Source: Macrocystis pyrifera
Taxonomy: Eukaryota > Sar > Phaeophyceae > Laminariales > Laminariaceae
DNA: 64,000 nucleotides
Assembly (NCBI GenBank): GCA_031763025.1
Contig: JASSKH010000001.1
Location: 20,189,142-20,253,141 of the forward strand
Direction of reading: 5' to 3'
Under the pieces are notes generated by a model, which made no database searches, was not told where the DNA came from, and saw only the letters and a list, made by a program, of their open reading frames with translations. How positions within the stretch are numbered: the first letter of the stretch is position 1; each line of letters begins with the position of its first letter. Positions 3,557-58,200 of this stretch are shown in pieces. The translations under genes and the position numbers were made by a program.

Positions 3557-6500
3557 CCAAATGGTGGCTTTCGATATATGCCGTGCAGATCATTCTGTAG
3601 ATCTCTCCTGAAAGTATCCCTTGGCGTTTGCACTCTTATCATACAATGTACAACTGACAAGTACCCGTTGTCGAAAAAAACCCGTATAGTCTCAGTGACA
3701 TTCGTTCCGTTCGAGGGGGGGTGTGATGACTTGCGTGCTACCTGATACGTGTTACGCGGTACCAACGTATCATTACATCATGCCGATAAATTTCCCAGGC
3801 GGGTGGACTCAACGTTGGGCTTTCCGTCAAGCATATTTCGAACATGGTGTCGAAGCTATTCAATAGGCCAAGTCGTTAGCCTTTTCCTTTATATGGCAGC
3901 AGTAATGCACTACACATGCACCTAAATCTGACAGGTGTTCTGTCTCCACTTTGTAGTCTCTTGCCCTCACAACGGGAGTGCAGTCCTTAAGGCCTAAAGG
4001 ACTTACCAGCCCTCGCAGAAACAGCGAAAGCCAAGAAGACCGATGGTGTATTCGTACTACTGCTGTACATAGAGACTATAACCGTGGCATTTGGAAACGG
4101 TTAAGCGTCAGTTCGAACCTCACTAAGGTGTCGTTTTATTCCTTTTCAGGGGGTATGGCGCGCGTCTATCGAATTCGCATGGTGGTTGCTGTACGGCAAC
4201 GGAAAACACACGTACCTGGTACAGCAGCAGGCACTGGTATTAAATATCATATCTCGCGTGAGAAAACAACATGCATGCGGTGGTGGTCCCTCTATAGGGA
4301 CGATTCAAGTAGTGCCGATTGCCCGCTATGCTATATACCTGGTATGATATACCGGTAGTGCCTATGAAATCGCGTGGCACAGATGGGACTATAACCAGTG
4401 TGGATGGAGTGTATAGTAGTGCCGGTTGCCCGCTATAGGACCGGTATTGTTGGCTGGCACATACTATTACTATTAATAGCCCTATACATAAAGAGGGACC
4501 GTTACTGCGTAGTCGATCAACGTCTAGAGTGCTGAAGCTAGTGCGCGACCAAAGGCGTCCCGGGGAACAGTAAGCAGGGATCAGGGAGGAGCAGGCTAGA
4601 GAGGAACCTCGGGCTCCAAGAGTGAAAAATTCGTTGAACGTGAAGTCTGAAAATACGTAGAAACACGTTGAACTAAAAAACTGCCGCTCACGCCGTTTAT
4701 TGCATACCTGGCACCTTTTTTTTTTTTTTTTTATCCATCACTTTTACTTCCCAGCCCACTCGTACGAGGTGTTACCCTCGACGCTCTTCTGGACAAGCCG
4801 TGGTCACAGGTGTCGTCCCTTCTCCCCCCCGGTACGTGCCTTTATTTTTTGTCGCGCATAGGGTCCAGCATTCCCACTGCTCGTCGATTTTCATCGAATG
4901 TAGCCAACTCACGCTTTCGCGCTTTCCGCTTATCAATTTGTTATGCAAGAAAAAGTCCCTATGAGCATGCACTCGGTGGGACTTGAACCCACGAAATTGA
5001 TCTTGACAGGCACGCGGACCACCTACCAAGCCACCGGGGACGCCGGCACATACTGGTACATAACAACTGTACTACTGTAACACAGCGAGTTTTCGGGCAT
5101 CTGTAGTAGTATTACGGATTCCGACCGCCGACCACATTTTCGGCGGGCATTATTGACAGTACGGCCAAACTGCAAAATGCAAACGTCGGCAGAGAAAGCA
5201 TGTCCTCTACCACTCTGCCCGGAAATACAAGAAACAAGAAACTTTTTATCGTTAATATGAATAACCAGACGGTCCTCACATTTTCGTCCAGAGTGATATG
5301 CAAACCCTCAATACCAACACTGTTCACGGGTCGGGTCAAACCTCGCGGGTCAGGCCGGGTCGGGCAAGGGTGACCCGACCCGCCCCATGAGAGTTTGAGT
5401 CCTCCTGACCTGACCCCGACCCGATCCGACCCGTGATATGTCAAGAACTCGATGACCCGACCCGCGGGCGGGGTCCTGACTCTTGAAAAGTCGTGCAGGT
5501 CAATACTACCAGGCACCACACCAGCCGCGCCAACCCCTTCACAGTCAAAAGTGCACCAACGTAACCAGGTATTTGTTACCAGGTATTTGTTACTTCCTTT
5601 TGGAAACAATATATGAACACTAGAAATTAGACTGGGAATCAGCGCTGACTCAGTCGACGAGAGTCGACGCGGGAAGAAAATTCCGGACTAACTCGCGATA
5701 AGTACAAAGTCATGCACACTCGCGGTTGTGGGGGGGGGGGGGCATACTACTAATACTTACTGATACATCTGAGCTACGAATAAGAGGGAACTGGAGGAAG
5801 CAGTGAACTATCATCGATGGGATGAAAACAACCTAAATCGACTATAGAGGTACACCTGGTAACTGATAACTGGTAACTGGTAACTGGTAACCGAAAGGAG
5901 ACACGGCCAAGCCACAAGCCACCCACGCGACGACGAGAAACATCTCTAGAGTGGGAACGTAACATCGATTTATTAATGTATTGACAGCATCACCTTCGTA
6001 ACGCGGGGACGATGTCTTGCCTAAGAGATCGATTCTCCATGATGCCCGTCGTGCAAAAAAAGGAGGCCACAAACATCGGATCGAAGACAAACGTGTCAAC
6101 GACTAGATGGCACACCGCCGGAAGGAAGCCACCCGAGTTGGTCGGAATAACGTGCTCCAACAGCCCGTACAGGGTGTGCAGAGCGGGACCAGTAACGAAC
6201 ACGCTGTCGACCCCTACTGCTAGCAGTCGCCGGGTATCCTGAGGAATCACAGAGGCGGGAGAGGGACGTGAAGCTATTGAAGTATACACCGGTACCTATA
6301 ATAAGCACCCGGTTATAGCTGGGGGGGGGGGGCAGTGTTGGAACGGCCCGAAGCCATTATATAGTACCTGGTACACAATTTTGAATAGCGCCTGGTATAA
6401 TGGAGTTCGGCGGCGTTGAGTACCTGGTACACAATTTTGAATAGCGCCTGGTATAATGGAGTTCGGCGGCGTTGAGCTACTCGTTCGTGATACTTGTAGA

Positions 6501-7422: not shown

Positions 7423-7942
7423 CGTGGGTCCGCTTTTCGAATCCCTGCGCAAATAATTCCATGCAGACAATGCAATTCATAGTGGAAAAGCCGTACCGAA
7501 AAACGAATATAAGTGGGAGTTCGGCAATTAGGGGATGGTGACTGAGGAAACAGGACTACCGGTACCAGGTTACTAGTTTGCGATACGGACGCGTGCTGTG
7601 ATAAGTGTGTGCAGCAGTACCATGATAGGTGTGTGCAGCAGCAACATTTTTGGCTCAAGTATTTATGAGTCTTAACAGTCGCCTTAATCCAATATCGTAT
7701 AATAGGAACACTAAAAATGTTTTTACAACAACAGTACTCGTGTGATACACATATATACCTACTATTACTACTATTACTACTATTAGCACTATTTTCATTA
7801 GGCTTTGGGATTGATCATCGGGTTTCACTTTCATTACAGTACCTTTTCTCCAAATCAGTTTTTGAGTGAGGTACTATTAATTAGAGTACAAATAATACAA
7901 ATATTACAAATAGTACAACTAGTACTAAGAGTACTATTATCA

Positions 7943-8041
7943 CGGGGGACCATAGTAAATAGGATCAAATATTGTTAGTAAAAATAGGCAAATATATAGT
8001 TTTTTATGTACACCATAGGTCCTATTAACTATGGAGCCCCG
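7943..8041 (-). mobile_element. MITE, copy 1 of 3
   Basis: This is a short non-autonomous DNA transposon of about 99 bp. Its terminal inverted repeats are CGGGGGACCATAGTAAATAG and, at the other end, the complement of CGGGGCTCCATAGTTAATAG. It is in the opposite orientation to copies 2 and 3, with the shared core AACTATATA...GCCTATTTTTACTAACA...ATATTTG on the minus strand. There is no coding capacity. The likely target duplication is TA (one side now CA). Confidence 0.85.
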
Positions 8042-8406
8042 TAATAGTAGTACTACAGCAGCAATATAAGAGCTCGTCAAGTGAGTATGATGAGTTCAGA
8101 AAATGTTACTACTGTCTACTACACTATACTACAGGTGTTGTAGACTCTACCCCTGCCGTACCACACGTATTTTGTACCAGTCTAAGTATTACACTGCCGT
8201 AAAATGCCACAGCAGTCGCTGACGGCAACTGACATTCCTCGTCGGCACGATCCAACACTACGCCACAACGACAGCAGGAGCAGGAGCAAAGCTTAGCTGT
8301 TAGGCCCACGAATAATAAATAATCCAATCAGAACCTCTCACACAACTGAAGCGGAGTAAGGGACCGACAGCCCTAAAACTTACCCGGTACAACCAACAAC
8401 ATAACA

Positions 8407-8476
8407 GATAGCAGACAGCAGACAGCAGATAGCAGACAGCAGATAGCAGATAGCAGATAGCAGATAGCAGATAGCC
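8407..8476 (+). repeat. AGATAGC/AGACAGC heptamer minisatellite
   Basis: Ten or so 7-bp units alternate between AGATAGC and AGACAGC without spacers. Confidence 0.95.
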
Positions 8477-10309
8477 TTTAGCAGATATTTAGCTACCGAC
8501 GCCGCCACGTGAAATAGCTACCGTCGTATTTCTAGTTCAGCAGTACGTTACATTGTGCTGGTTGAGCTGTCTACAAGCCGTGCTAAAGACACGATGGGAA
8601 CGTCGTTCAAGTTTCGTCACTGAGGCCGATTATTATAGGATCGGAAAACACAAAACTAAACAAAACAAAACAGGTTTCCCTTCATTGTACAGAAGCCCGT
8701 GAGCAGTGCCATCGGTAGTGATGGGTCATTTCTGTGCGCCACAGACAAAAAGCGTGCTTCGCGCATGCAGCACCCACCGCCGCAGGAGCCCTCGCCTACG
8801 GATCACGCTAAAACATTCAAGGGTGTATGCTCCTTTGCTCTATTAATAGGCGTCCTCGATGCCAAAAGTTAGGGTCGTAGATGGCCTGTGTCTGGAGGTC
8901 TCGCTTGGGACGTGAGAGTCTGACCCGTTTCTTTATCAACTTTTTTCTGATTCGGAAATGCCCTCCACCTATCTCTAGCAAACAGTTGATACATGAATGG
9001 ATTAGGCTACCACCCTCCAAGAGGGAACCTCCAACCACACTGTTTAGTGGAGCACATTTACACACCCTTTATGCGCTTAGGGTTAGAGGATGTTGTGTGA
9101 GGCGAGCACTTGGTGGCGGCGGCTAGTGCTGTGTAAAAAAACGTGTACTTGTTGCTGCCTCGGGCTGGTTTTGGAACTGACAAAAATAAATCAGAGCCGT
9201 GTGTGGGTTTCACCACCGAAAAGAAATCCTCTTCAATATTTTTTATCCCCTTTAATCCTCTTTTGTTTTCTGATTTCTGATACCATAATAGTCGACCTGG
9301 GTCGATAAATGCATGGCGAGTCGGGGTGTGGGGCCTGGGGCAGGGATATGCCGACCTTCCATGTTACGATGCCTGGTATATAATGGTACAGCAGTAGTAT
9401 GTAAGAAACATGTCAGGTTTGTTTCGTATAGAATCCGTTGTTTGTGGAGGAGGTGTTGAATTCGGGAATCGTGGGTCACACGACCTTAGGGGGTGTAAGC
9501 GAAGGTGTATCTGAAACACGTGCGCAAGAATAGCCCGGGGGGCTAGTCTCAGCAGCAGTAGCAACGCATCAGAAGCAGAGCATCGCATAGGGTAGAGATG
9601 CCCCGCTCGGAGAGGGAAGGGCCCTTAGGTGTATGAGTACAAGTAAGTGGAAGCCTGTTTTTTCATCCTCCGGCGGATTGGTGTAAGTGGAAGGCGGGTT
9701 AGCTCGATAGGAAGAAAACACCGTGAAGAATGCAGAGTGACGCACTTATCGCAGTCGCTTAAGGTATGAGGTATAGTATACTGACGGCAGGGTTTCAGCG
9801 TTTTGGAGTGTTTCATCATTTCGGGACAAACAATATTTCCAGAGTTTTTGAGCCAAAACAAACTGCTGTGGTGCTTGCAAAGATTCAGCCTAGACGTAGG
9901 AGCTATATACTGTCTTGCTTGTACCAGGTATGACAGTTATGACGACGGTATTTTGAATATCGCCTCACCTTAGCCCGTGCCTGGTAGATTTGAACGGTGC
10001 TCGTCTCATCAGCGGCGTGGGCATTCCTACTACTGTATCTACCTTGGGCTTTCAAACTACAAGTAGTGGCCCTTGTGAGCGCTTACAACGTACCAGTACA
10101 CCGTTGCGTGACTCCGTGTGTTTCTACCTTGCCATTCAAGTCGAATATTATACGAACTAGCGGTATGGCCACGGCTCCGTCCGTTGCGCTAGCTCTGCGT
10201 TGTCTATACTACGGTAGTAGTAGTTTGTAAGTACATACCTGGTACCAGGTAGTATTATCGTACTATTAAAAAGCTGTGATGTGCTAATCTGAAATAACCA
10301 TCGCGCGTG

Positions 10310-10575
10310 TGGTATCGACTCGGGGGATATCCGTGTCTGCCCTCGGGTTGTTGGAGTTGTACAAAGTGTTGAAGATTTGCTGATCTGGGGATGGGGGATT
10401 ATCATCCCGGGTGCGGCGGGATATCGACCATGATCCCCAGTCAAACCTGAACTCAGCCAGTGGGGTTGGGGTTTCCACACCTTGCGGGGCGGTATCGACC
10501 CGGGAGATGTCCCTTGTCGTCCCCGGGTTGTTGGAGTTGTACATGTGTGAAACAATTTCTGGGTCAGGGATGGGA
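10310..10575. repeat. Direct repeat, offset 180 bp
   Basis: Segments at about 10310-10395 and 10490-10575 share GTATCGACYCGGG and GGGTTGTTGGAGTTGTAC with matching spacing. The offset is exactly 60 codons. On the minus strand both copies stay in one frame and read YNSNNP...DI(P/S)RVDT, so this could be a relic of a repeated protein. The surrounding frame is short, and no family is recognised. Confidence 0.65.
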
Positions 10576-10857
10576 CTAGTGTTGGATATTCTACCGCAAT
10601 TTTCGATATATCGTTCCATAAATACATATATATATGTATCGAACCGAAAAAAGTTCGGTATTTCGATAATGGTTTCGATAATTCGATATGATAAAACGAT
10701 AAAAGGACGGACGCTTCTCAGGGGGGTAGGGGACACGGCAAGAAACAGCACTATACTCTGGTAGACGAGTATGATATCAGGTCAAGCGTATAACACCATA
10801 ACATTTTACTTAGTTAAGATATTCAGCACCAGGTGTATGTACGTGGTATGTTTGCGA

Positions 10858-11360
10858 CACTATTAATAGCTAGTGTACCGAATAAGAAAAGGAGCACTAA
10901 GAAAGGGAGGCTGAGATTAACAGGAAAATACAAAATTCGGGAGTCGTTTTGCTGGAATTAGTGGATAACACGCCCCCCTTCTCAAGTAAGAAATTCAGCC
11001 TGGGCCAGGTTTCTTGTTTCTTATTTTGTCTCCTGCCTATACCGTACGTTGATTCTGGTAAACTACTCCAGGTGTTCGTTGTATCTACCGGCACATATAT
11101 GTGTGTTTTGTTGTATACACGTATAATGCGATAAACAGCTGAGCTATATACCTACTGTAGTATATACATACGTAGTATTAATAGTAGGAGTACAGCAGTA
11201 CAGGATGCCTATTGAGAAAACGAGCAATAAGAATGGCAGCCTGAGATTAACAAGAAAAAATGTAATTCGGGATTCGTCACTATATACTGAAATGAGTGTA
11301 TAACGCACCCGTTCTCATTGAAAAAATCCATCCTGGGCCAGCTTTCCTGACTCTTACGAG
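10858..11360. repeat. Diverged tandem duplication, offset about 316-330 bp
   Basis: Both halves contain TATTAATAG, then CTGAGATTAAC(A)AG(G/A)AAAA, AATTCGGGA(G/T)TCGT, ACRCMCCC and CCTGGGCCAG in the same order. Indels between the anchors make the offset drift from 316 to 330. No coding signal. Confidence 0.75.
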
Positions 11361-12305
11361 TATTAAGTGTTTGCACTTTGGATACCAATGAAATGTAACA
11401 GTATTACGATGAGTGGATACCGGTGACATCATATGTATGTGTAACGAGGTACACGATGTGGGATGGAGAGGGAATATGGCTAGAGAGGAAGCAGGACGGT
11501 GTGGGAAGACCGTCCTACTGTAGGTTCGACCTTAAGCAGTCTGTCCCTGGTATTGGCCAGCTGCACCGCACAACCTTCTGCCCGTTGCAGTCAATACCCG
11601 GCCACCTATTAGAACAGCGAACTGACTGTGGCATTAGACGCTTTTTTCAATAATTTGAGGGGAGAGAACTTGGCTTTTGTAGCAGCAGGTATCAGGTATC
11701 AGGGTGGTAGGTGCAGGGGGGTGGCAGAAAGTATAGGGGAGGTCGGAAAGGGCGGGTAGAAGTGATTGCAGTGGAGATATTCAGATGTTCATGTGGGGGT
11801 TTACGCTTGATTTTGGTCTAGTTTTGTCAAGTATTCAGGTCTGATTGGTCATTTCTGAAGTCATTGGATTATGGATTCCCTTCTATATGCAGTGGATGGT
11901 GTGATTGGAATAAGCACTATACGCTATCAGACCCTTAGGCAAACAAAATAAGAATAAATGTGTGATAAGGTACCTGATGCCACATACCAGGTACCAGTAT
12001 AAAACGGCAGTAGCATCGCGGCTGGACCAGTACGAGCGTGTTTTACTATGTTTCGTAGTGGTGTCTTACTCGCTACAGTATAGGCCCTGCGAAGGTATAG
12101 TGCAGAGATATAAGCTGCAAATAGACACAGGGATGGATGTCGATGCTGTATAGGGCACGCTGCTTGTATTACTGTAATAGTTCACGATCTTATTACTGCT
12201 GACAAACGTGGCATCCGTAAAAAAAACGCACACACAAGAGCTGTCTTCGATTCTCACCGCCGAGCTGTCTGTCTGTATGTTGTGAAGCACAAGGAAAGAA
12301 CGCTA

Positions 12306-12410
12306 TTACGGGGGTCCATAGTTAACAGGACCTACGGTACACACGAAAACCTATACATTTACCTATTATTAATAGCAATATTTGGTCCTACTTAATGTGG
12401 TCCCCCGTAA
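12306..12410 (+). mobile_element. MITE, copy 2 of 3
   Basis: The ends are TTACGGGGGTCCATAGTTAA and its inverted partner TTAAGTAGGACC...GGTCCCCCGTAA; the outermost 9-12 bases are perfectly inverted. The core has the CCTATT...CAATATTTGGTCC block seen in copy 3. TA is present on both sides, consistent with a TA target duplication. A TTATTAATAG word sits inside, where the other copies have TTTTTACYAACA. Confidence 0.85.
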
Positions 12411-12639
12411 TACTAACAGTGTTGATCTACCCGATCTCTTATTTATTTTTACCAAGATTGATGTGCATCTACGTATGTACAGAACGATTGGACACATGAC
12501 ATTGGAACAACCTTGTAAAAAATACGAAAACAGCACGCACCCCCGGGACACGACGCGAGAACGGCCATGGCTATCCCCGGCAGAGACGGGGGTAGCGGGC
12601 AAGGTGAGGCGCGAACAGGAAGCAGCGCACCGATTGGTA

Positions 12640-12850
12640 GACCTCATTACGAGCTAGCTCGTAAACGACTACAAAAACAGGTCTACAGTAGAAAACATAT
12701 TTACGATCTTCCACACCCGAACTCAAAAACTTGATATCTGTGCGAGCTGGGCCAGGCGAAAAATGGATAACCATCCGAACGTGTATCTCGTGAACCACCG
12801 CGAATTAGGACTTGAACTTTCGAGGCACTAAGTCCGACACAACACTGCAT
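12640..12850 (-). other. Possible second, degraded tRNA-derived SINE
   Basis: Read on the minus strand from about 12850, a TGGCGCATGCAG word (A-box-like) is followed by AAGTTCAAGTCCTAATTCGC (B-box-like). It lacks a clear poly(A) tail and flanking duplication. It may be a decayed relative of the SINE at 4716-5042 or a chance match. Confidence 0.3.
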
Positions 12851-14321
12851 GCGCCAATATATACCGTATAAAATATGACATGTTTATTATTCGACTCGAT
12901 CTTGACGAAATATCGACGAAAACTAGAAAAATACTAGCTTTTGAACACGAAATTCGTATTAAAATCGTCGATCCCGATTAAGGCGAAAATTGGTGAGGAC
13001 TCAGCTGAATGAAGACCCTACGAGAACACCGATATAAGTTTCATTGCCCAGTTCACCATCAAGAGATATTGCCAAAACACATTTTCCATACGAGTTCGTA
13101 CGTAAAACGAGTATATACGATAAATGTTGGTTTTTCTGCGACGCCCCGCTCAATTTTGCGAGTTTCGATCTGAAAACGTAACCTCGTATTTGCACATCCG
13201 CCAACAAACGGAAAGCGAGTCTTTTTCTTCAGACAAGTTACGGTCGCTGCTGTATTTTTCGGATATTTGTATCGGTCATATCATATATCTCTCGAACAAA
13301 AAAAAAAGAGCTTGCTTCCCATTTGTGGGTTGGTGCATGATCAACACACCGCGTAAAAAAGTCGCATCAAAATAGTACATAACAGGTACCAGGTACCTGG
13401 GTAGTATTGAGTGGGGCGTGGCCAATCTACCGCTTTGACAGCACCTTGGCTGGCCCAGCTCGTATGTAATGTGTGCGTGATGGAAACATCATAGGCATAA
13501 GCAAACATAAAACCTGGTAAATGGTATGATAACATGCCACCCGTCACCGTGTACGTCGCAGGGTGGCAGGACCCATGCAACTCGTGGACGCCGCAGAGCG
13601 GCAGGACCTGTGCAACTCGTGGTAGAGACGTTGTGAGGCTTGAGACGCGAATCATCCGGGGTCTCGTGTGGATCACGCAACAACAGCCAAAAGTGAAATG
13701 GGCGGGTGTGTTCTGCGGGCTTTGTGCGCCGCTTTTCGCCTCCATTATCGTTATCGTTATCGTTATCGACTTTTTGGGTTTTCGGTACAGTAGCAAAAAT
13801 TACCGTTACCGTTATCGTTGTCGAAGTTATTTCTGCGCTCGGTTTATCACAATACTTGTACAATTAGGTAAAAATGGAATATAGACGAGGCGTATTACGC
13901 AGCTTGCAAAGTTGAGTACCTGGTATCAACTATTTAATCAGTCGAACCCACAGCCGACGTATTTCAAAAATTATAAAATAAAAAAATATGCCAGGTACCA
14001 GGTATACAACAGCAGTACCGAAACGTTTCTGGTTCGATCTCCAACACTATTATTAATAATAGTCACCAATCACGGCGTCATGACTGTCAGCTGCCAGATG
14101 CTCGCACGTGGTTCAATCGACGGCCACGCGCTGACTACCAGCTACCTGGTAACAGGTACCTGGTAAATAATACTCATCGCTGAGCACGTGGCCGAACACG
14201 TGCAGGACGCTGCTGTCTGGTGGGTATGCACGGCAGCAGTTGGTTGGGGATTTCCTTTTCAGGTCCGACTCATGTTGCGTCTCTTCGCATCGGTGAAATC
14301 CAATCAGTTCATCATACTCGT

Positions 14322-14337
14322 AGACTATTAATAGTCT
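14322..14337. other. 16-bp palindrome around CTATTAATAG
   Basis: AGACTATTAATAGTCT is a perfect palindrome. It is one member of the CTATTAATAG set described in the findings (others at 4470, 8840, 10860, 37110 and 57103). Confidence 0.9.
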
Positions 14338-14552
14338 CTATACCAGGTGCGAACGTAGTGCTGGTCACAACTACTGCTGTAGTTGGCCTGATTACTGCTG
14401 CCACCGCGCCCGCGCCGTGTACTGCTACCGCTGCGTTGCAAGCTTGTCGGCCGAAACGACTGGTTCACTGGACCCGATGTATTCCAGGGTACTGGCGTAT
14501 GATGCGAGCAAAGGACTTGAAAAGTTAGATTTCGCCCTGTTGGCGGTTCCAT

Positions 14553-15289: not shown

Positions 15290-15545
15290 TTTTTTTTGTC
15301 GTGAAAGAGTTGCTTGCCGTGGGTTGATGACGAGCCTGCTTTGCCTGTTTGGCATTATCTGACGCATCCTCTCCGGGGGTGGTAGTTGACGGACGCAGCA
15401 CGGAGACGGCAGACAGGGTAGCAAGGTACCAGACCGACTAGTAGGGAGAACCTGGCTATGCTACTCGTATCACAAACTGCTGCGACTACCTGGAGGGTGC
15501 TTTGTGCTTCGGTTTGCATATTGTTTTCCCTTCGCTGCTACCCGT
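15290..15545 (+). mobile_element. LINE 3'-end fragment (copy 2)
   Basis: It is collinear with copy 1 at 2830-3085. The shared start is GATGACGAGCCTGCTTTGCC. The ORF end reads ADRVARYQTD and stop, and the 3' UTR includes CTACCTGGAGGGTGCTTTGT. The 5' side is truncated. Together with copy 3, in the opposite orientation about 280 bp away, it forms an inverted pair. Confidence 0.75.
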
Positions 15546-15827
15546 TGTTTTTCTCCTGGAAAAAAAACACGAAATTCCTGTAGAAGTGGTCAAGTTCGAA
15601 TTGGAGCATGACACGGCCAATCCATCGCCGGGGCGCTCTCGGCACTATAAATATGTGTCGTGCCCCCCAAAAGGAGACGTGGCACACAACACTAAAAACA
15701 AACAAAACAAACAAAACAAACAGAACCACCACACATAAACGGAGTACGATTACGAACCTAAGGAAACAACAGGCAAGCCGAAGCACAACGAAACTAAACA
15801 AATAATAGCACCCTGCAAGCAGCCGCA

Positions 15828-19127: not shown

Positions 19128-22100
19128 CTACACGGGCGGGCCCCAAGCTAGAATCGCCACCCCTCTTTGGCGCCATACGGGGGGCAAAATCTCCTTAGGC
19201 GCTGGCAGCTCCACCGTCAAAATTAGCTCGCTGCGTCGGCCATGCAGATAGACCGGAACAGCCACCTTCGACGCCACCGACATTGGACCGTCCAAGTCAC
19301 CGGCCTCGTTTGCACCCTCTGGGCGACGAGTCCAACACAGCTGGCAAAGGGCCAAGGCTCTGCGGTGGTCCTTGGAATAGGCCAGGGTCTTCGTGGCCTC
19401 GCTCCAGCCGGCTCCTTCCAGCACCAGCCCGGTGATTGGGAATGCCATCGATGAGCCTGAAGTGGGCACGAGCATCCACCGGTAAAACAATAGCAGTGAG
19501 CGGGATAAAAAGCGGGTTCGCTCTCGGGTGAGGAAAGGGTTTGACGTCACCAAAAACGTGGCTCCTTGTTACCGTCGCACCAAAAGCAATGCCATACAGG
19601 TACCACCTTTTTATTGACCGAACATGAAGCTCCATTTTTTAAACCACAAAAAGCTCACACTACCGCTCGACGACTGCAATGCAACCCCCCCGAAACGGAA
19701 AAAAAAAACGTTGACCCCAAAAAAGACAAGCAGCCGGCCGGCAAACGAAGCATTGATCACTACTCGGTATCCGCAGTCACCTCCCTCGGTGCTGTTCTCT
19801 TCAGCAGGGCCCACGACAAGCGACAGCTTTAGCTCCTCCAGAGAGCAAGACAGCGCGCGGGCCACGTGCTGGCGACTGGCGGTCACAAACGCGTCTGGGC
19901 TAAACAGCCCCCCAAGCCAGTAAGGCGAAGCGTCGGGACCAGACTTGGCACCCGGCTTGGAGACACTTTCCAGGTGGCCAATTCGCTTGCCGAGGTCGTC
20001 CACCCAGCTGGCTGCGCCCATGGCAGCCTGCACGAGGCCGCTCTTCCAGGTTGCCGGCACAGCGTCCTTCATCAAGGCGCTCACAAGCGCGCGCACCTGA
20101 AGCCGTAACGGAGCCGTCACGAGGAAACAAAGCGTCACGTTTGCCGCTGATTTCTATACGTAACAATTGATGCCGTGTGTTATTGGCGCCCCAGCAAGGT
20201 AAAGGCGAGTCCTTGAACGCGCGACAGACCGGCAGAGAACACTAGAGGCATGTGGGAGAGGTGGTTACAACATTTTCCATGCTGAGAAAATAGACGAAAC
20301 TCAGCGACGACAGCATCACCGACTCGGGGCCAGCCCCCGCTGACTCCTTTATATGCACCGGTAAAGCTCGACGATCACTTACATACCCTCAATAACACAC
20401 CGGTAACGCGCCGGCCAGTAAGCATATTATACCTCGTTGGTGGCCTTGGCCTCCCCCCTGCACAGCTTGCCCACCGCCGTCAAGTCGCCGCGGACCTTAG
20501 ACAAGAGCGCCGATCCAGTCGACACCTCGCGGCGCAGGCATCGGTGCAAGGCATCGCCTTCCTCGGCATCGTCCTTTCCACAGGCTTCCTCCTTGCCGTA
20601 GTTGCCTCTTCCCACTATCTTCGGCAAACAATCCAACCAACTGGAAAAAAAGCGAATAAAGCATACCGAAGGGGGGGGGAGGGGGGGATACTGGTATGTT
20701 ACTTGCAGGTAGAGGTGAACCACCACTAATAAACCGGGTGTACCACTCTGGGCGGCGGGCGTTGGCGCATTGAATGAGGCCCGACAGGTCTCCAAGATAC
20801 AACAACACGAAGGGACAGGTACTAAGTAGCAACACGCGGCAACTACGTAGTTACAGCAAGTACGGTATGTCGAACTTTTGCTCACAACCTGAGTTTTTTT
20901 TATGGGCATCAATCACTACAAAAAATCGATCCTGGGCGGCGTTGTGTACCTACACGCTTACCAATAACGCCTGCTTCGAACTAAAGCTGATAGTGTGAAC
21001 ACGACAAAAACATAAGTCAAGAGTTGAAGGATCAAGCACGACATCCCCTGCTTTTAAGTGTCGGTGCTGTCAACGAATGACTTCAGCGACCGTCAAGTAC
21101 CGTCAAGTCTTGTGGCGCCACACTTGGCGCTTTAGTCTGATAAGTGCTCTCCTCGACTCTCCGTCTCACCCCTGCGTCCGATGGAGCAGCTGCTCAAGCC
21201 TGGCTTCCTGCCCTCCACTGCCCGCGTCATCTCCTGCTGCCAATGCGGCGGCAGCCGCTTCCGCCCAACTACCATCGTCCTGAATCAACTACCGTTATCA
21301 CAGGCAAAGGGTATGTGCGAGCGAAAACCGTGGCTTTAAAGATCAAATATCACAGTCTCGCGCAAGACATGGTAAGACTATCGGCTAGCTATTGGGGCTA
21401 GGAAAACGCCAGAGTATACGTAGGCGCATCCGAATTCGATATGTTAGCGACCATGTGAGTTGACCCTGCTGCAGCGCATCAGATTTTAAGGCATGGCATG
21501 ATATTCACATAATAAATATGCGGTTCACGCCCCCCGGTCACCTGCCAGGTAGACAGGAGCTGTTCACCCCTGCTGGCCAGCAGCGCCGCCTCCGCGTTGG
21601 GAGCGAGGCCCAGCCACGTGGGAGGGTTGCTCGCGGGCAGATTGTTGGCCCACCTCATGAACGCGTCGGGGCTTGTAGCGTCCGGTAGACACACCAATGC
21701 CGACGCTTGCGAGGCGCCAACTTCCTGAGAGCTAGAGGTAGTCAGGCGTCAACACCAGAGGAGGGGGGGTGAAGTCGGGGGGTGAAGCTATTTTAATATG
21801 CGCAGAAGTCCTGACGAACATCAGGTATCAGCCCACAAGACTACAGGGACAGACATTCGAACCCATGCGCTACTATCACGGGTATGGAACGCACCACTCG
21901 CCAGTCACGCCCCCCCGGAACTACGCACTCGTAAACATCACTATCAACGCTGTGCGCTACCAAGGCCGCTGTCCTCAAAGGCGAAAATTGAAACTGACAA
22001 ACACGCGTGTACATCGCACACCATGATTGCAAGGTTTGCACCAAAGGCATGCTGTGTTGCATGTGCGAGCCGTATGTTACCTGCACAAGGCAAAGTTCAG

Positions 22101-34200: not shown

Positions 34201-37200
34201 CCGAACCTTTTTTTCACGAGTGACATCAATATACAATACTACCGGCGAAAACAGTTGAAGTGAAACCTACCGACTTTCTCGCGCCCGTGAATCACACCAC
34301 ACCAAGATACGCCGCCCTATGGACACATTGAGGAAGCAAGCAGGCAACAAATCAAGCCGCTTCCAATCACACTCCAACCAATCTATCCGGCAGACCTTGA
34401 CACTCTGTTCGCCCTGAAGCTGCAGCATCTGAGTCCTGCGCTGCTCGACATCGGGCCGTTCCGCCCTGAGGATGGATCCCAGCGCCTGCTCCCACGGCAT
34501 ACACACGTTTCACGTTTCGCGTTCAAAAACTGCTTGTTCTTGCCGCAAGCACACGCATTTTTCCCAGTTAACCCCCTTTTAGGATCACACTACCGTTTCT
34601 GGGACAAATTACTTGGAATTAGACTGAGTTATGTGTTACTACTGTACAGTACGGTAAAAGTTCAGAACATATCATAGCAGGGATATCGGTACCAGGCACG
34701 GTAGTTCATTGCACATGCAGCGAGATGGCGACTACCTGCACTGGCCAACAAGACCACCCAACGACAACATTACAACGAGTACGCGTCGTGACGCACGCGA
34801 AACTCCTTGCCCGTTACAGGTAGATCAACAAGCCGGGCTTCCGGCGCGACACCTCTTTGCACACAATGCAGCGGTCGTGAAACTACTATCTCTACAGCCC
34901 CACGAAACGCATTTTGTACTACTGTAAGTACCCTGCACGCTGTATTGGGCCGTTTGGAGCAAAAAATGGCTTACTCGAGACTGCATCTCCTCAGCGTTCT
35001 GTGGTGCAACGGAGTATGAGTGTATGGTAGTTGTGCCGGCACAGTGCTTTAATTGTACAACCTTATTTGGCGTTTGGAAACATATTTGACAAACCCAACC
35101 CCAAAGCTACTAACAACGATTCCGTACATAGGTGAGAGGAGAGGCATCCCATGCAAACGTGTGTTATGCCCGACAAACATCACGCATTGTAATTGTAGAT
35201 GCTTAACATCGGCCGCCCACGTCAAGTCAGTCACACTTTTACTGCGTAACTGCTCGGAGAGTTTATCTCACCGCTTGCCAGCAACAAAAGGGGAGTATCC
35301 CCGAACAGATACCGCCGATACAGCAAACAACCCCACTACAAACAGCCCTGTTAAGAAAACAAAAAAAGGTTTCCGCAACAGTGACGTCAAAAGTGGTTCG
35401 CGGAAGTTTCCCGCTGTCATCGAAACGCACCTGACTCTGCAGGCTCGCAGGCGTGACCGTAAAGTTAACAATCGTCACCCTGGAGCACAGGTCGGGGGTG
35501 AAGCGGGCGCCCGGGTTTCTAGTGACGAGCAGCAGCAAAAAGTCAGGGCTGTAATCGATGTCCTCCGACCCCAGGCGGATCAGGGTGCGGCCGCCAGTCC
35601 GCTGCAGCTCGCGGTTGAGGAGCGGGTTGAGCACCGGATCCACAGTCTCCACATCCTGGTCAATGGCGACGAATCCATGGAAGGGCCCATGGGGGAGGGG
35701 TGTACACGTCATTCATGTCGTGCATGACCATAGTCGTATCACCATAGGGAGGGGTGTACTCATGTAATTCATGTCATGCATGCCCCTAGCCGCATTACTG
35801 TAGACCCTCGGATCCCTACAATGCCTATACTGCCGGGACGGAAAACGTCGGGGATCAACCAGACAGACAGACATTGCTTGCACAAAGGACCCTACCACGG
35901 GGGGGATATAGGCAGCGAAGTTGGCGCCGTATCATCATTAATGTTTGGGTTATTTTGATATAGGTGTTGTTGTACGACCCCCGAGATGCCGGACCAGTCA
36001 TGAACGAAGGTAAAAGCAGGGGACATTGGCCGTACCGGGTACCTGGTATCTCACTAAAGGGTGCCGACACACCTCAATCTATACCGTATAGGTTGGGTGG
36101 TGTTGGGTTGGCTGGTTGGGTGGTGTTGGATTGAACCTTTGATGCAATAACGAAACGTTAGTGCAGAGAAAAATCCTTCGCTACCATCCGCGTGCGGCCC
36201 TTTTCTCGATAGCGGGGTAGAAGGCCACAACTACAAGGCACCGAGGGGTGGGGGAGCACCATCCTAGGGTATACCGGTATCGCACAGCATACCTACGATT
36301 CTAAAATTCTTGTTCGGCACACTGCTGTGCCATTCAATACCTGCACGAGCAACGGAGTCCCGAACCGGATGGCGCTGGCGAGAGTCTTCATGAACGATGA
36401 GTCGAGGAATGACGTCGTAGCGATTTTTCGCTCCTGTTCAGGTCACAGAGGAAGTAATGAAAAACAATAAAATGAGGGCAGTCCACAAAATGAGAGGACA
36501 GTCGAAACCAATGTGCAGTGAGCTGGTGAGTGGAAGCCCACACGCCTTCTGTGCGAGCTCGTACTTTGCTCAACACAACAGGAAGAGCGTCTGCCATTCA
36601 TAACCGAGGACCTTTTGTCAACACAGATGCGGCAAAGTTCGACGCAGAGCTGTACACGCCATGGGAAGTGGCAAAAAATAACAAAAAAAAAACGCAACCC
36701 CGTATTTACTCGTTTGCGTGAGCAATCAAAACTAAGGACTGCGAAACGGGCGACTGGGTCTCGCGTGTTTTGTACCACAAACAGCTCTGTTTCCGCGATT
36801 GCCGTTCTTCAAGTACGCCAGCAATGCAACCATAGTCTAAAGCAAAGTATCACCTTGTACTTGTTGAGGAGGAACCGAGTAGCTTGTCCAGCGGGATCCA
36901 CGACGAGCGGGAACCTGTGACTAAACCTCTCAAGCACCACCGCGTTCTCGAGGCATAGGTCGTCAGCAGGGAGCCCCATAACCTGTCCAGCAACGGCAGG
37001 CAAAGAAGCAAAGAAGCAATACCCATTCGCATTTCAGGTCGTGCACGGTCAAAAAAACAAAATAACACCACGGAAGGGGACTGTACCTCGGACGCAATTT
37101 TGCTCAATGCTATTAATAGTCGTTTGCGTACCCATTTTGGAAAACCAACAGAACCTGGCGGTAGGATAGCTTGCGTGCAAACATGTCCTTTTCCCATACA

Positions 37201-40200
37201 CTTAAACGATGAAGCCATTCCGTGGCAGTCGTGACCCTTTCACGTATCATCCCATCCACCATGACAATCACACTCGGAAAACATGCGTTTCACTTCCCAA
37301 AACACCCCTCGCCCGTTCGTGCGCCGAGGGTGGGTGACAAAGGCCCACAGCCAATTAATCTAATGCGTGCCAATGGAGTAGGGATCATGGTGTAACACAT
37401 ACCACAACGTGTTGTACATCACACAACCATCATCGCAGCGGCACAGCATACAACACCGCAGCAGCACCGACCGCAACACGCTCATCTCCATGCCGATAAA
37501 CCAACAGGAGGACCACGGCCACAACCACGAGCAGCAGGCAACGCCCCGACGCAACAAGAATCACAGCAACGATCCGCAACGATAACCAGATAACAATGTC
37601 TTAGAAACCCGAACTAACCTTCAATAAGTACAACGCCTATTTCAACGAAGAGGCTAGACACGAGGAGGGCGATGCCCCAAAGCCACCGAGTCCGCTATAA
37701 CAACCATGTCTCGCGACTCTCACGCCGTAGGGACGACAAAACATAAGACAAGAAAAGGCAACCTTAACCTTCCGTAGAAACAGAGGTGCGAGCACTTTAT
37801 CCGGAATGGGAATTTATCTTCGATGTATTTGCAATCACCTGCCACTCGAGCCTCTGCTTAGCCGTGCTGAGGTACTGCCTCAACGACAGCTCCTGGCGGA
37901 AAGGCACCCCAATATCCGACAGAATTGAGCGCCACTCCATCAAGAGCGTCTGCAAGAACCGGACGAGCGCAAGCATTCACGTGGGAATCTTGATGTAAGT
38001 CGGTTGTTGCGGGAGATAAGCAGCGATAGCATGCGTTAACAAAGCTCGGGTATCTCCTACCGGACCTCTCTCGTCTCGATGACGGTCCCAGGGCGCTCTC
38101 AATGGGAATCGAAATTAAACTGAGATCCTCCCGTAGGTCACTGTAACACCGGAATTTCCGAAATATAGCCTCAGCCCTCTCCCGTCAATGGCGAGGTAAT
38201 CAGCAGTTCCAAGAAACCAAGTGCACATAATGGGCCAGCGAAGCACCATTCTGTCTGGAAAAGTAAGAACCCTTTGGGTGTAAATATTAGTACCCAAACT
38301 GCCCTTACATTTCCAGACATTGGTATCAAAATCAGTGTCTCCTATACGCATGAAGACATACCTTTCGGGAGCGGTAGTCGAAGACCCCCACGTAAGTGAT
38401 GAAAGCCGCCGCAAGAAGACCGTCCCCGATGAGCGACTGCAGCTGCTTCGTGAAGTTCTCCGACGACTGGCTCCAGCGATCGCGCTCCTGTTCGAGGTTG
38501 CTCAGTAGAGCTTCAGCTCGGGTCACCTGCACGGAGCAAATCGAACAAACCAACAAATATCGTAAACAATGAACGGAGCAAAAAAACATTGCAATTACAG
38601 TACATGCCGTTCGGGTACCGTCCGGCGGGGTCATACCAAACACCGTCAGTTGTGCCAAAAGAGTACCGCTGGAAGCTGCAGCAACGTAAAGAGCTCCAAT
38701 CGCATTGATTAGCGTAAGTGAGAGCACTACGGCTTCATCAAATGGCGATTATATTTCAGTGGTGATCCATTGCCAGGCACACTAGCATGAGCTCTTCGAA
38801 ACGCAACACGAGGCACATGATTTCCTGTGAATCACATTTTTTTTTTTAATGAATTTGCTGAATACCGGTACAAAAGTTCAAGTTGCGCGGACCTCCAGGT
38901 GGCAGCAGCGGAATCCAACGCGCGCATCGACAACACTCACCGCGTGATATAGAATGTATTACCTTCTGTTTGACGGCTTCCATCTCGGACTTGACCGCCT
39001 CTATCTCCCGGATAGCCTCTGCGTATTCTTCCTTGTACCTGTCACGACACCAGAACACCCGTCGCCTCATGCCATGTCATGTGATCTCATGCCTTGTCAT
39101 GCGACGTAATGCCATATCACGTCATGACACGTGACGTCAATTGACGTAGTTTTGTCACGTCAAACGTCATGACACATCAAACAGTATAATGTCATGGCAT
39201 GACATGTCACGTCATAGCACGTCACGTCACGCCATGTCACCTCATGCAGTGCACTGTCATGTCATGTTTTACACGTCACATCACATCATGACGTCAACTA
39301 ACGCCATGTCCTCCCATGTCATGTCGCGTCACACAGTGTCATGTTATGTTACAACATGCCATGTTATGCCATACCATGCAATGCCATGTCACATGCCACG
39401 TCACATCAAGACACACAGTACTGATTACCCATACGCTGACACGACGAGAGTGGATACATGACAGCAACGGAGCCAACGGGCAGCGTTTCCACCTGACGTC
39501 GAGGCAAGTTCAACACCTAATCCATGGCTCGCATCCTACGTTGGGTGCCGGGTTCAGAGGCAGGCAAACGATTCACTGCCTGTTCCCATTAACAAAATAA
39601 TGGCATCGCCTACCCGACGAAACAACAAGCAGCACACATACACGTCGTGAACCGAAAACAAATGTATCGCACCAAACAAACTCCAGGAACCAACCTGCAT
39701 TCTGAAACCAAACAAGGTGGAAACCATTGCGACACCGTGGTAGCTGCGCCAAACGGCTTCGAAAGCCGACGAGTGTGCTTCATGTGGAAATGCCGCGACG
39801 GTTATCATGCCATGTAGGCGAAACGCAAGGACATAAACATAGGTTTCGACCTAGCTATCAGCCGAACAAGACGTACCTGGTACGAAACTTACCCTTACAT
39901 AATTCATACCAGGGTAGTCAATAAAAGTGTCCTACACCATTTCCAACTCTAATGTCTCCAAAAAATGGTCGCAGTTCTTAAGGGGTTGACCTGGCGATGC
40001 TCCTTTGAAGTTCGTCTATCTGCGCCTCAAGCGTCCTCTTCTGCTGTGTGGCCTTGTCGCTCTCGAGCTGCAGGGCGGCGATCTCGTCCTTGAGGGGCTG
40101 CACCATGATGGCGATGCGGCTGAAGTTGATCTGAGAGTTCACCCACTGCAAGTCCATGCAGGTGTTTACACGAACGGAGAGCGAACGAATGTTCGATCGC

Positions 40201-52200: not shown

Positions 52201-55200
52201 CTGCGTCACCAGCCTGTCGTGGAACAGCCTCAGCGCTTCGTTCGCCCATAGCCGCACCAGCTCCTCCAGGGTCATTGCATCTAGCGGACTCATAGCTTCG
52301 TAAAGGGCGCGCACCCACCGTGAAAGCTCCCTGGGCGAGTAGATGTACTGCGGACGCTGATCCGCGGTAAACTTGGCCTGTGTCCCACGTCGAAAATACA
52401 AGTCGGTCGGATGTAGAGGAGACAAGGAGGCCACGCATGCGTAATCCCTTTAGTATTTCTCCCACGTTTCGGGAACACACTATTAATACTTTAATACTTG
52501 GAATTAGAGTTGGGTGCTTACATTTTCGTGAAGTAATGTCAGTCTTAAGCCTTAAAGATTATGTGTGCCGAAACCTCCGCTCGGCTCCACCACCGAGATC
52601 AGCGTGATTGACACGCTCGTGTCCATGGTACGATGGCCCTGAATATCGAGGGAGCATTGTGGCATTATGGCATAAAGTGACGCCATAACCGGTAGGGAAC
52701 TATCGCGCACCAGGGGAGTCATTTTCTTGCAAACACGAGGCTTGCTCTCGTGCTCTTGTGTGGACCTGATAGCGGGGTCTGCCGAACGGTATGTAGACTT
52801 CATTTCACAAAGTAGCCAGGCGAAAGTCGCAGAACGTACCTGGTTGAGATGGTAGAACTCGATCATGGCGTTAGTGAGGCCTTCCAGGTGGCCCCTAAGC
52901 GGCGGGTGCAGCTTGAGCAGCGCAGAATTGAAAGTCCCGTAGATTTGCTGAAGGCTCTCTCGGGCGGGGGAGTCGACAAAGAGTAGAGGAGCATGCCGCA
53001 AGAAACGGGGGGGCAAAACCTGTCGACCTGTGCACGGCATGCAACGACGATGCGGCAAAGACGGCACACTGTGATCAACGCGGCGGTCAATGATAAATAT
53101 TTCAAGCAGGTGGGCAAGACGAGGTCACGCTATAGGTTTTACCCGCAAAAAAAAAAAACAAAGCAAAGGCCAAGAGTTTCCGAAAGTCGAGAGTCGGTGT
53201 ACGATTCGAACGGCCTTGGCGCAGTCCTACTGGCTGGCTGGTTCACACGAAACGCAAACAAAAATACGGCACGCCACGGCGGTAATCTGCGGGGTAAGAC
53301 AGTAATCCGTGTTTCCCGTATAAAGGAGATGCGCAGGGTTCCTTGGAAAAACTACGTATGTATCTGGAACTGTCTACCTGGAACCTGGCATACAACATTG
53401 TACATCTTGCAATGTTGTAATTGATACACAAATACCAGCGGGAAATGATCACTTCACCATCTGGGGCCCACGGACGACGTGCGAATGGTGTCGTCTGATG
53501 ACAAGCGGAATCTTAAATGTGAGCACCTGCGTCCGTCGGGGGGTTGCAAGCCCCGACAAATTGCACCCTGCTGAGCTTGACCCAGCTGCGGTCGCTTGTC
53601 CGCCAGAAGCCGCCTTGCTCCGTCAGCTGACGCAGGAACGACACCACCCGCTGAGTGCCATACTTGTCCTGAACAAGAGAATCGCACCGTTCGAGTGTCA
53701 GCAGTAGCCTTTGTCTACAGCAGTACGCAGGCACACAGGACGGCTACAGACATACCATACTTGGTCCTGAACAAGATCATTGCACTGAAAGAGTGTCAGC
53801 TGTAGCCTTTGTCTGCAGCAGCAGACAGGAACATAGGACGGCTTTAGGCAGGAAGGCCGGACAGGTTGCGGGAATGTATAACGAACGAGTAGTAAAAGCG
53901 GCACTCTTCGCTCAGTCATACTCGTTGTGAAACACTGCCCTGTCGCCCCGATACGAGCGTAGCATCAGCACCGTCGATCAGCTCCACAGGACTTCTGTAT
54001 ACATCAGGCAAGATCAATCACGCATGGAGCACAAGACCAAACGCCTCGCGCGCATGCCTGCTCGAACAACGAACAAAATTAAGAGAGGCAACGCACGCAC
54101 CTCAACTTGTAGAAAGTGCTACGAGTATGACACCATATGACACCAACTATCCGTTTAGGCTCTGGGTTTCTTGTTGTGCCTTGCAAAGTCCCCGGCACCC
54201 AACGAGCTCTCCCTTTTCAACGGACTCGAACACTTCTATCGGTGCAAAAATGACTTCACTCCAATTCCCAAGAACTTCGGCCCCGAAACGTGGGTGCAGT
54301 TTCGTAACGGGTTGATGAGAAAAAGCAGCATGCATGGTGGAATTTTTGGTTGCACGTGTATACATACCAGGTACCTGCTACAAAAAATTCGACGGGGTAT
54401 AGTCAAAATATACTGTCAGGTACCAGATATAGGGTTAAGTGTGTTATGGGGTTATAAATGGCCTATAGGCAGAAATAATTGCATTTTCTGTGTAGGAGAC
54501 GACACCGCAAGCTTTTATCTAGGGTAATAGGCCGGGAAGCACGTATGCTTGAGGCGTTGACTTTGGAAAGACACCTGAGCCGGCAGGTTGATTTCATCGC
54601 AGAACACCACCAGCCACTTGTCCACGCCCAGGGAAGCCATCGGCTGCAGGACTACTCCCCGAGGCGTGCGAACATACTCGCAGTGCTGCTGGAAAGCCTG
54701 TAGAAACAAAAGTGGAGTATCAGCAAATGGAACACGGTGTTGAGAGTGTGCTCGCTCGCACCACAGCGGTACGAGGTAGTAGAGGGATGCAGAAGGATGC
54801 AGAGGCACACAGAAGAATAGGGTGGTCTTCCTCGCTATCAGCTGCCATGAGAGGCACGCGTGTAAAGTTTACGACGTCCAGATGGGCCATTTCGTAACAA
54901 TACTGCGGGCTAAAGCCCCCGTGTTGCACATTTTTGTGAACGAAACTACTGTAGGTCGGAAGCTGACACGATGGATGACGATAGCGCGATGAGGGAAAGT
55001 AAACTGGCATGCTCGTTTGGCCATTAACGATCTAACAAACGCCCTCGAAGAGTGCCATGCTGAGCCACAGAGCTTTAGCACAAATGTGATGCCAAGGGGG
55101 AGGGGGTAGTCCTGACCGAGCATGTCGCAATGATACCACCTGTTAACAGCGTACAAGAAGACAAGACCCGACAAGATGCTGATCTTGATGGTCAACATGC

Positions 55201-58200
55201 GCATGCCCACCAAACTCGACCGCAGCCATACGAAGCCACCGAATGATGTACAGTACTGTAGAATCACCTGCAAGATGAGGTTGGGGTCGGTCGAGCTCGA
55301 GAAGTTCAGGCTGACCAGGACGAGGTTCGGCATGGCTTGCAGCGTTGATGTGAGCGTCATCGTCTTCCCTGATCCGGGAGGTCCACACAGGATCAGGGGC
55401 TTGTGGGAAGCCAGCCATGCCTTCAGCACTTCCACATGTCTTGGGCGCACAAGCCGAAACGCATCGGAAGAACCAAAAAGAGATCACACGGTCAGCGCAA
55501 CGGCAGAAAGTGGCACCCTCTACTGTAGCATACAACAGACATCCGTACAGGGCGCAATACCATCCTCGTAGCATTTCCGAGGAACTAAAGAACAAAAGAC
55601 TGTTGTACGCACTGCACTTCCGAGGAACTAAAGAACAAAAGACTGTTGTATGCACTGCACTATCACGACAGATGTACCCCACTACCCCACTACGTGACGA
55701 CAAAGCCGTACGTACTGCTCAGCCTACGTATCATAGCACGCAGACCCCACAGGCGGGTCCCATCGCTTCTCACAAGGCACGCGGGCCGCTCTTCTCACAC
55801 AACTCATGACAAAACCATCCCGTCGCTTCTTGATTGCCAACACTGTCAGAGTTTGACCCTCTCGTGACGTCTGCCCCTCACCTCACGGTGTCGGTCGTGG
55901 TGATTACCACGTCCGAGCTCACGATGCGGTGAGGCTCCAGCTGAGTCCTCGGCACAGAATCCGACCAAGGAACCCACTCGCCTTCACCCACAACAACCTG
56001 CAACAATACGCAGCGAAGCGAAGCAGCAAGACGGCATCATGGCGAAAATGCACAGGGTGACATTGCACAACGTCGACGCCGAAAATCCGATCCCGCAGGC
56101 CAACGCCGGAGAACGATCACGTTCATCGTGGTTCTGTACGAAATCGCAGTTGGAAGTTCAAGCACCAACCAACAGCAAAAGCCGTGCTTCCGTCCGTGCG
56201 TGTCGGCTCTCACTCGTGAAATTAACCCACCCACCCTGACGAGGGAGGGGATCGGCTTCTCCATAAAAACACGACGACCGTACCTCATAAACACCACAAG
56301 CCAACACAGTGGCCTAAACCAACAATATCTACCCACCTGAAGAGAGGTAAGGTCGGCGCCGTCGAGGGTCGGCGCTAGTCCGGAGCCACGCATCATCACC
56401 CCCCCGAGCTCCGCCCTGCCCTTGGCGTCCATGCTTCCTCCCAGGCCCCACATGAGCGAGTGCAGCAGCCACCGAATGGCAAACCGGTTCAGGGTATCCT
56501 GAGCCGCGCATCATAAACGGGGCAAGGAACAAACAGTTAGAGGTAGTTGGCGTCCATGCTGCCTCCCAGGCTCCACAAGAGCAAATGCAGCAGCCACCGA
56601 ATGGCAAACCGATTCAGGGTCTCCTGAGCCGCGTACCATACACACTGCAAGAAACAATTAGAGATACGTTGCAGCGCGATACAATACAGTGCAATCCCCC
56701 CCTCGGTGGACAAGAGATTATTAATACGAGAGTTCGGTGGGGTGGATAACACAACAGACAAATGTGATGAAACGATCAACACCTTTTAGCTGCTGCTGAA
56801 AATGAGCTAATAATGAAATGTTCTAAAGCCATCTACATCAGTCTCTCCACTGGTTACAGGAGCTGGGCAGAGAAGTGGCTCTCCCGGTGCCTCTCGAGTG
56901 ATGTGACAGCCACCATGGCATCAAATTGACCTGTTCTTGCGTATAACGCACGTCAACCTCGTAGAAAAGACTGCGGGCCTACCGTATGCTGACCGCAAGC
57001 CAACCAGGGATAAAACACAGCGAGTCTAGGAAAAACGCAAATCTACCACCGACCGAAGCAACGCTGCCTGCAACTCTACGAAAAACGCATATAAGGCTGC
57101 GACTATTAATAGGCTAAGCTATTGGCATCAAACATTCTGCTGGAGGGGAGGGGGGGAGATTCAGACCATCTCACCGGAGGGAGCGGGAAGTCAGGATGTC
57201 CCTCGTTGTACTCCAAGACCAGTGCTACTCCCCTTTCCAGCAGCGAGCACACGCTCTCCACCAGCCTCTCCCTTGTGCTCGACATCACTTGCGGTCTGGA
57301 CAGGGCCAGCGAAAGGGCCACCGGGAACAGCCGCTCGTCGTCGTAGTTCTCGCTCCCAGCAACGAGCGGGCCTACCGCGTGGAAGTGCGGCTCGAGCTCT
57401 TGCGCGAAGTCCAGCTGCGCGGTTTCAATTCACGGCGAGGGTCCGGCTTTGAGATAAAATCGCGGCTAGGATTACTTAGTAGGGTTACTACAGTAGTTAG
57501 GGTTACTTGCGGTTTGTTATTGGTAGGCTGGGACGCGTACTGCCGTAGGGGGTCTATAGGGCCGAACATTTTCGTGGCTTTTTTTTTTTCTCATTTGAGG
57601 AGCTAGACAACGCACTCAATAAAAAAAAATGTAAGCTAAGCCTGTTACACAATCCGACGGTCTGGTTAATAACCTCGAAACAAATACTGTGAAAATTTAC
57701 ACATCGGAATGGCCCCCCGCCAGTGGCGAATAGTTGCACACCTTGGACAGATCATCAACAGATAGATCCATCATCTATATATCTACAGTAGACTATGTAG
57801 TTCCTCACCTGCCGATGTGAGAGGCTGTCCAGGACCTGCATAGTAAATATCCAACCCAGGAAATATGCGCTGGATCATGCGGACTATACGGGTCCCACGC
57901 GATAACATGAGCTAAAATATGTAAGATTGGGAATGCGTGTACCTTCAAATATCTAGATCATGACTTGGGAATGATCTGTAGAGTAACTTGCCGAGGTGTT
58001 AATAGGTGCCCACAAAAGTGTCAGAGCACCCCAACACCCGCCATAGCCGTAGGCTGTAGTAAAAGGCGCGTGCAGGACGAGATAGCGCAGAACAGCGCGG
58101 GGGTAGTAGACAGGAGGAACGCGAGACAAGCGGGTGAGCCGCACGATCGATCCTCCAGACAGCGTTTGTCTTTTCGATGGATCGCTGGTGAGGCTCACCA

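Follow-up and report, generated by a model that had tools for sequence, protein, structure and literature searches.

A palindrome over-represented in the Macrocystis pyrifera genome is probably the scar left by excision of a common miniature element with a TA target

The locus and its palindromes

The window analysed here is a 64,000-nucleotide stretch of the genome of the brown alga Macrocystis pyrifera (G000:C189:20189142-20253141), and its subject is a perfect 10-bp palindrome, CTATTAATAG. With a probability of about 0.92, this word is the excision footprint (TA+TT+AA+TA) of an abundant miniature inverted-repeat transposable element (MITE) that inserts at TA. The window carries six exact copies, all at the coordinates given by an earlier note on this DNA. 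Of the near copies listed in that note, some have coordinates 1 to 4 bases off, and the one at 12366 is not a scar. None of the six exact sites has a paralogue in the sample (0/6); their designation as probable scars follows from the genome-wide class to which they belong. The features referred to below are the following.

4470..4479, unstranded: exact CTATTAATAG, probable footprint of the genome-wide class, no paralogue in the sample
8840..8849, unstranded: exact CTATTAATAG, probable footprint of the genome-wide class, no paralogue in the sample
10860..10869, unstranded: exact CTATTAATAG, probable footprint of the genome-wide class, no paralogue in the sample
14325..14334, unstranded: exact CTATTAATAG, probable footprint of the genome-wide class, no paralogue in the sample
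37110..37119, unstranded: exact CTATTAATAG, probable footprint, between the dynein matches 19614-20912 and 54872-55483
57103..57112, unstranded: exact CTATTAATAG, probable footprint of the genome-wide class, no paralogue in the sample
14047..14062 (C189:20203188-20203203), unstranded: putative nested footprint CTATTATTAATAATAG, a word in genome-wide excess
7942..8045, unstranded: resident donor MITE, 89% to the query copy
12305..12410, unstranded: resident donor MITE, 83% to the query copy, TA on both sides, holding the near copy at 12366
60846..60963, unstranded: partial donor MITE, cut by a TACCTGGTA insertion at 60940
2860..3116, plus strand: copy of the test repeat family with CTAG empty, from the paralogue alignment
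15319..15532, plus strand: more diverged copy of the test repeat family with CTAG empty, from the paralogue alignment

Three frames match the dynein heavy chain in Pfam: 19614-20153, 54872-55483 (minus strand) and, with a score under the Pfam cut-off, 20430-20912. Those at 19614-20912 and 54872-55483 perhaps form one gene over more than 35 kb, and the palindrome at 37110 would then perhaps lie in a predicted intron. The claim that the palindromes avoid exons holds for the three dynein-matching frames, which contain none of the six sites; its scope is the 20 longer frames, picked from the window's open-frame list, that were compared with Pfam.

Over-representation in window and genome

Dinucleotide shuffles of the window yield a mean of 0.02 exact copies, against the six observed, so that the reported over-representation holds; with one mismatch allowed, 15 CTATTAATAG-like words are found where 1.07 are expected. 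Across the genome searched (537,376,219 bases in 223 contigs), CTATTAATAG occurs 21,353 times, and the reversed word of equal base composition 415 times, so that the low genome-wide count by which the earlier note would have been refuted is not what is observed. A third-order Markov model, which the earlier note had named as its yardstick, predicts 0.4 occurrences in a 275-kb set that takes in four loci (L001-L004) chosen for holding the word; 30 are found there, both strands counted, corresponding to 15 sites. The density is 1 per 11 kb in the window, 1 per 25 kb in the genome and approximately 1 per 40 kb (five copies) across 20 pieces of 10 kb taken at even intervals along the window's own scaffold. 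The window is rich in the word and is not unique. The signal is real and strong and is best explained by a known process; it stands out by how large and how uniform it is. Among the titles and opening lines of abstracts listed by the literature searches, none describes such a palindrome or footprint for a brown alga. In the window and random pieces, long runs of C or G also lie far above chance (C8, 1094 versus 134 in 200 kb, both strands).

The donor element

The donor is a common, nearly palindromic element of approximately 106 bp with ends reading 5'-TTACGGGGG(T/A)CCATAGT. The window and random pieces, 264 kb together, hold 30 copies, unevenly spread (10 of them in one piece, L021), and five further copies lie in loci picked for other reasons; 29 of these 35 are near full length, at roughly 105 bp. 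Exact ends number 66,604 genome-wide, against 212 for all reversed controls; should every exact end belong to this MITE, there would be no fewer than about 33,000 elements. The short length, inverted-repeat ends, high copy number and uniform size are those of a MITE, and its length suggests that it is non-coding. Viral contigs, also scanned, contain no exact match to its end.

The duplicated target is fixed by a pair of paralogues. Locus L028 has the MITE inside a larger repeat and L029 has the same repeat uninterrupted; the comparison therefore identifies the duplicated target as TA. These Harbinger-like (PF13359) loci were used solely because the two copies supplied this empty and occupied pair. 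Harbinger-type PF13359 is frequent in its own right, with 145 matches among 150 candidates scored in the genome and several frames of about 300 codons.

One site in three states

A dispersed repeat supplies the closest view of how the palindrome arises. Its copy in L011 reads GGCGGACTATTAATAGCAGGGAG, and the copies in the window and in L024 read GGCGGACTAGCAGGGAG or near it. The genome holds 2,185 candidate copies, of which 40 were scored and 20, spanning both match lengths, were aligned with the L011 copy, the two window copies and one L024 copy (n=24). Six of the 24 bear six extra bases, which form CTATTAATAG; this is not a frequency, as the aligned copies were chosen by hand. Among the 18 without the insertion, 15 read CTAG and three (L042, L045 and L046) a point change of it. 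CTATTAATAG is a net 6-bp insertion into CTAG.

The scarred copies are scattered. Three of them sit on one scaffold and are almost identical to one another, with empty copies as their next neighbours, and the other three are single, each with an empty nearest neighbour; the scar appears to be present in four lineages among the 24 copies, in a tree of low support. Genome-wide, the scarred form of the test site is found at 44 places, with up to two mismatches. At all four loci with the exact predicted left junction, the MITE itself sits in the CTAG of the test repeat, and the four MITE sequences differ. One CTAG is thus seen in three states: empty, as CTATTAATAG, and occupied by the approximately 106-bp element as CTA-TTACGGGGG...CCCCCGTAA-TAG.

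Paralogues of other sites are fewer. Both exact 10-mers that have a paralogue in the sample (L011:8162 and L013:7187) have an empty-like relative. With any flank allowed, 51 TATTAATA sites are present, five have paralogues in the sample, and two of the five fit a footprint.

Target preference and nested scars

Element and scar have a common TA target and a preference for a following G. The three bases after TA are G, T and A in 52%, 47% and 46% of 94 footprint flanks and in 59%, 56% and 59% of 27 MITE ends, against 21%, 28% and 29% after all background TA; both flanks of each scar are counted separately here, and related copies are included. For the first base (G in 49/94 footprint flanks and 16/27 MITE ends, versus 21%), footprint and MITE do not differ (P=0.66), and each differs from background (P=2e-11 and P=1e-5, respectively). 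In the whole genome, C precedes the TA at 39,817 of the 66,604 exact MITE ends (60%). A second scar-like word, TACC(A/T)GGTA, served as a control and shows another preference, C or T after TA.

The proposed footprint creates a new central TA (CTAT-TA-ATAG), and therefore a second round at that position is predicted to give CTATTATTAATAATAG. This scar within a scar occurs 297 times genome-wide, and its reversed word once; one copy lies in the window, at 14047.

Excision model and its rivals

The proposed course of events is as follows. (i) The MITE inserts at TA, preferably in C-TA-G (consensus TAC-TA-GTA), and duplicates it, giving CTA-(TTACGGGGG...CCCCCGTAA)-TAG. (ii) Excision, probably through cuts by a transposase of Tc1/mariner type, would leave TT of one end and AA of the other: CTA-TT-AA-TAG, a net insertion of 6 bp. 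(iii) The break could be sealed by either of two routes. Two-nucleotide 3' overhangs might be filled in and joined, or three-nucleotide overhangs (TTA) might pair via their self-complementary TA; both would yield TTAA. (iv) A second insertion and excision at the central TA of an earlier footprint would produce the nested form. All genomic copies of the palindrome would presumably share this origin.

Possible break products, which would retain n bases from one end and m from the second, were counted in the 264 kb on both strands. TTAA between two TAs occurs 94 times where 8.5 are expected. The 3+2 product TATTAAATA is found seven times (2.0 expected) and the 3+3 product TATTATAATA not at all (0.6 expected); TATATA (1+1) reaches 378 versus 164, for which simple AT repeats may account. 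The remaining products stay at or below approximately twice expectation, save for words expected less than once. TTAA is compatible with both cuts, and the scarcity of other products may lean towards joining of three-nucleotide overhangs. The same counts bear on the idea that the palindrome is a resident MITE reduced by extreme internal deletion, for instance abortive gap repair, with 2 bp of each end kept. Formally, this gives the same letters; deletions should vary, however, whereas the product is uniform and other end lengths have no comparable excess, and this origin is very improbable.

The earlier note also offered a site bound by a protein, or a structural element. If maintained by selection, such a word would be comparable to the highly iterated palindromes known from cyanobacteria, and a perfect palindrome in high copy number with differing flanks would suit this reading. 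The word, however, seems to have arisen repeatedly, each time through insertion of 6 bp where a MITE elsewhere sits; its flank preference is that of the MITE, and the nested form is not predicted by such a function. This explanation is not needed, does not account for why the word inserts 6 bp at targets preferred by one mobile element, and is exceedingly unlikely. Just as unlikely is the converse history, in which the 10-mer is ancestral and the CTAG copies result from a 6-bp deletion between two TAs, which the paired TAs could promote: 18 of the 24 copies are empty, including the most diverged, with the scars scattered among them, and MITEs separately occupy the same site, which requires an empty CTAG. 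Least probable of all, to a degree that makes it practically negligible, is an element of the piggyBac, Kolobok or Sola3 type that is directed to TTAA and whose footprint or favoured target the word would be, to which the central TTAA and two weak genome matches to PF13843 (piggyBac-type) might point: TTAA targeting is excluded at the one site tested because the empty CTAG contains no TTAA, and the duplicated target is TA. A direct search of the sample for elements ending in TTAA gave no convincing inverted-repeat pair. The earlier suggestion of a TTAA- or TA-directed transposon thus keeps its TA half, which the empty, occupied and scarred copies support.

Superfamily membership and points against the footprint origin

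The element is Tc1/mariner-like in its inferred behaviour; since the searches turned up no transposase that carries these ends, it is not proven to belong to the superfamily. Two traits of the superfamily are present. TA is duplicated, both in the L028/L029 pair and at the test site, where four occupied copies compare with 18 unoccupied ones; and a few terminal bases are left between two TAs, as seen in full at one site. PIF/Harbinger elements have a 3-bp TWA duplication as their hallmark. They were considered and set aside, as the TTA on the left and the TAA on the right form a mirror pair instead of a direct repeat, and the empty site has one TA only.

Several observations weigh against the footprint origin. 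(i) The complete three-state demonstration concerns one site, the tree of its copies has low support, and conversion among these copies might make the origins look more numerous than they are. (ii) The fourth base after TA differs, with G in 36% of footprint flanks and T in 44% of MITE ends. (iii) In an unbiased list of small indels, a TTAA insertion appears at two places only, and one of them (L007:7350) is not between two TAs. (iv) Among the paralogue comparisons, L013:9876 lies in a simple repeat; the near copy at 12366 does not fit either: it is part of a MITE copy, only substitutions separate it from its paralogues, and it is ascribed to point changes because those paralogues have equal length. 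A TTATTAATAA site at L013:8777 has a relative (L016:9542) that is 17 bp shorter, which a simple footprint does not account for. (v) The genome contains 39 matches to PF03184 (DDE_1); nine loci were fetched and eight scanned, all but L027, which is near-identical to L026, and none is bounded by the MITE ends, although the 3.5 to 6 kb stretches scanned could miss a long element. (vi) A six-frame genome search for PF13358 and PF01359 gave no matches, PF01359 giving none in the controls as well.

The DDE_1 loci scanned were rejected as the transposase source; one of the DDE_1 loci, L061, has no more than an ordinary MITE next to it. Among the pogo-like DDE_1 loci, L056 and L059 (also L026 and L027) lie on two scaffolds and share 99.6% identity across 5.3 kb, and these loci carry tandem units of approximately 160 bp containing TACTGCTGTACATATATA. 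They possibly represent a recently duplicated or active element, and possibly a lead for the word TACTGCTGTA described below.

A second insertion class and further words

In the unbiased list of small insertions, drawn from repeat copies, the first word is AACC, which varies inside the MITE and is listed for 14 places. Three words have six places each: an A run, a word of 12 bases always at one position of a single repeat family, and ACCAGGT. The last corresponds to TA-CC(A/T)GG-TA replacing TA, and it alone of these specific words occurs in six different contexts. The 7-bp insertions at TA are as follows.

Window 13917 and 60940: TACC(A/T)GGTA insertion
L005:7098, L007:3570, L011:8783 and L021:7943: TACC(A/T)GGTA insertion

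TACC(A/T)GGTA has 76 sites in 275 kb where 2.2 are expected, an excess of approximately 34-fold; six tandem pairs are present (12 counted on both strands), and its flanks read R-TA...TA-Y. It resembles a footprint left by a different TA element; its donor was not found. If it is such a scar, its five-base, near-self-complementary remnant may reflect a cutting stagger that differs from the two or three bases known for the Tc1/mariner elements compared below.

A further pair of words, TACAGCAGTA and TACTGCTGTA, has 33 sites in 275 kb (for example, window 53716 and L014:3969), approximately 27-fold in excess, and no empty paralogue was seen in the sample. An origin of TACAGCAGTA by mismatch repair was rejected: the mixed products TACAGCTGTA and TACTGCAGTA occur 0 and 0 times. 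One random piece, L013 (C189:8500001-8510000), holds 22 footprint-like words, belonging to three classes, within its 10 kb, against 0 to 9 in each of the remaining 19 pieces.

The 21,353 exact scars of one class stand beside at least about 33,000 elements. It is a tentative proposal, at somewhat below even odds, that cut-and-paste turnover has been heavy, with footprints rivalling residents in number and several families each leaving a uniform TA scar of its own, TACC(A/T)GGTA being the second.

Significance and comparison with known systems

The rate at which MITEs depart, unlike the rate at which they arrive, is hard to see. The kelp scar is long, uniform and countable, and, if the tentative proposal of heavy turnover by several families is true, the scars would form a genome-wide fossil record of excision. 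Because one site is seen empty, occupied and scarred, and the scar can be counted, excision rates, site reuse through nested scars, and repair outcomes could become measurable from one genome and from kelp populations. The case also cautions against taking every strongly over-represented palindrome for a regulatory signal.

Bacterial IS630 reportedly prefers the TA within CTAG, and the kelp element resembles it in this preference. The ISY100 transposase of the IS630-Tc1-mariner group is an example of a two-nucleotide cut in the available text of its description (PMC2170065); ISY100 and IS630 are bacterial systems. Sleeping Beauty and Mos1 share its TA target and have three-nucleotide overhangs (PMC7827188, as far as its consulted sections go); the kelp footprint could come either from ends of two nucleotides or from ends of three nucleotides that were joined via TA. 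Another brown alga, Ectocarpus, has a Tc1/mariner-type MITE, TcMar-N1_Ec32, with an autonomous relative, TcMar-2_Ec32 (PMC12477816, main text). There too, short non-coding elements far outnumber autonomous copies; TcMar-N1_Ec32, however, is 217 bp long, unlike the approximately 106 bp of the kelp element, and the words footprint and excision are absent from the main text. Submariner of Pandoravirus salinus is likewise a near-palindromic, TA-flanked MITE recognized via a paralogous empty site, in the portion of its report available (PMC4495683), but it measures 243 bp and has 30 copies in a virus genome. The Stowaway MITEs of grasses are also short and palindromic, leave a few end bases between two TAs and show repeated loss and gain at one site (PMC1925063, in the sections drawn on). 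Stowaway left five different putative footprints in one intron; the kelp element, in contrast, would have left a near-uniform footprint in thousands of copies.

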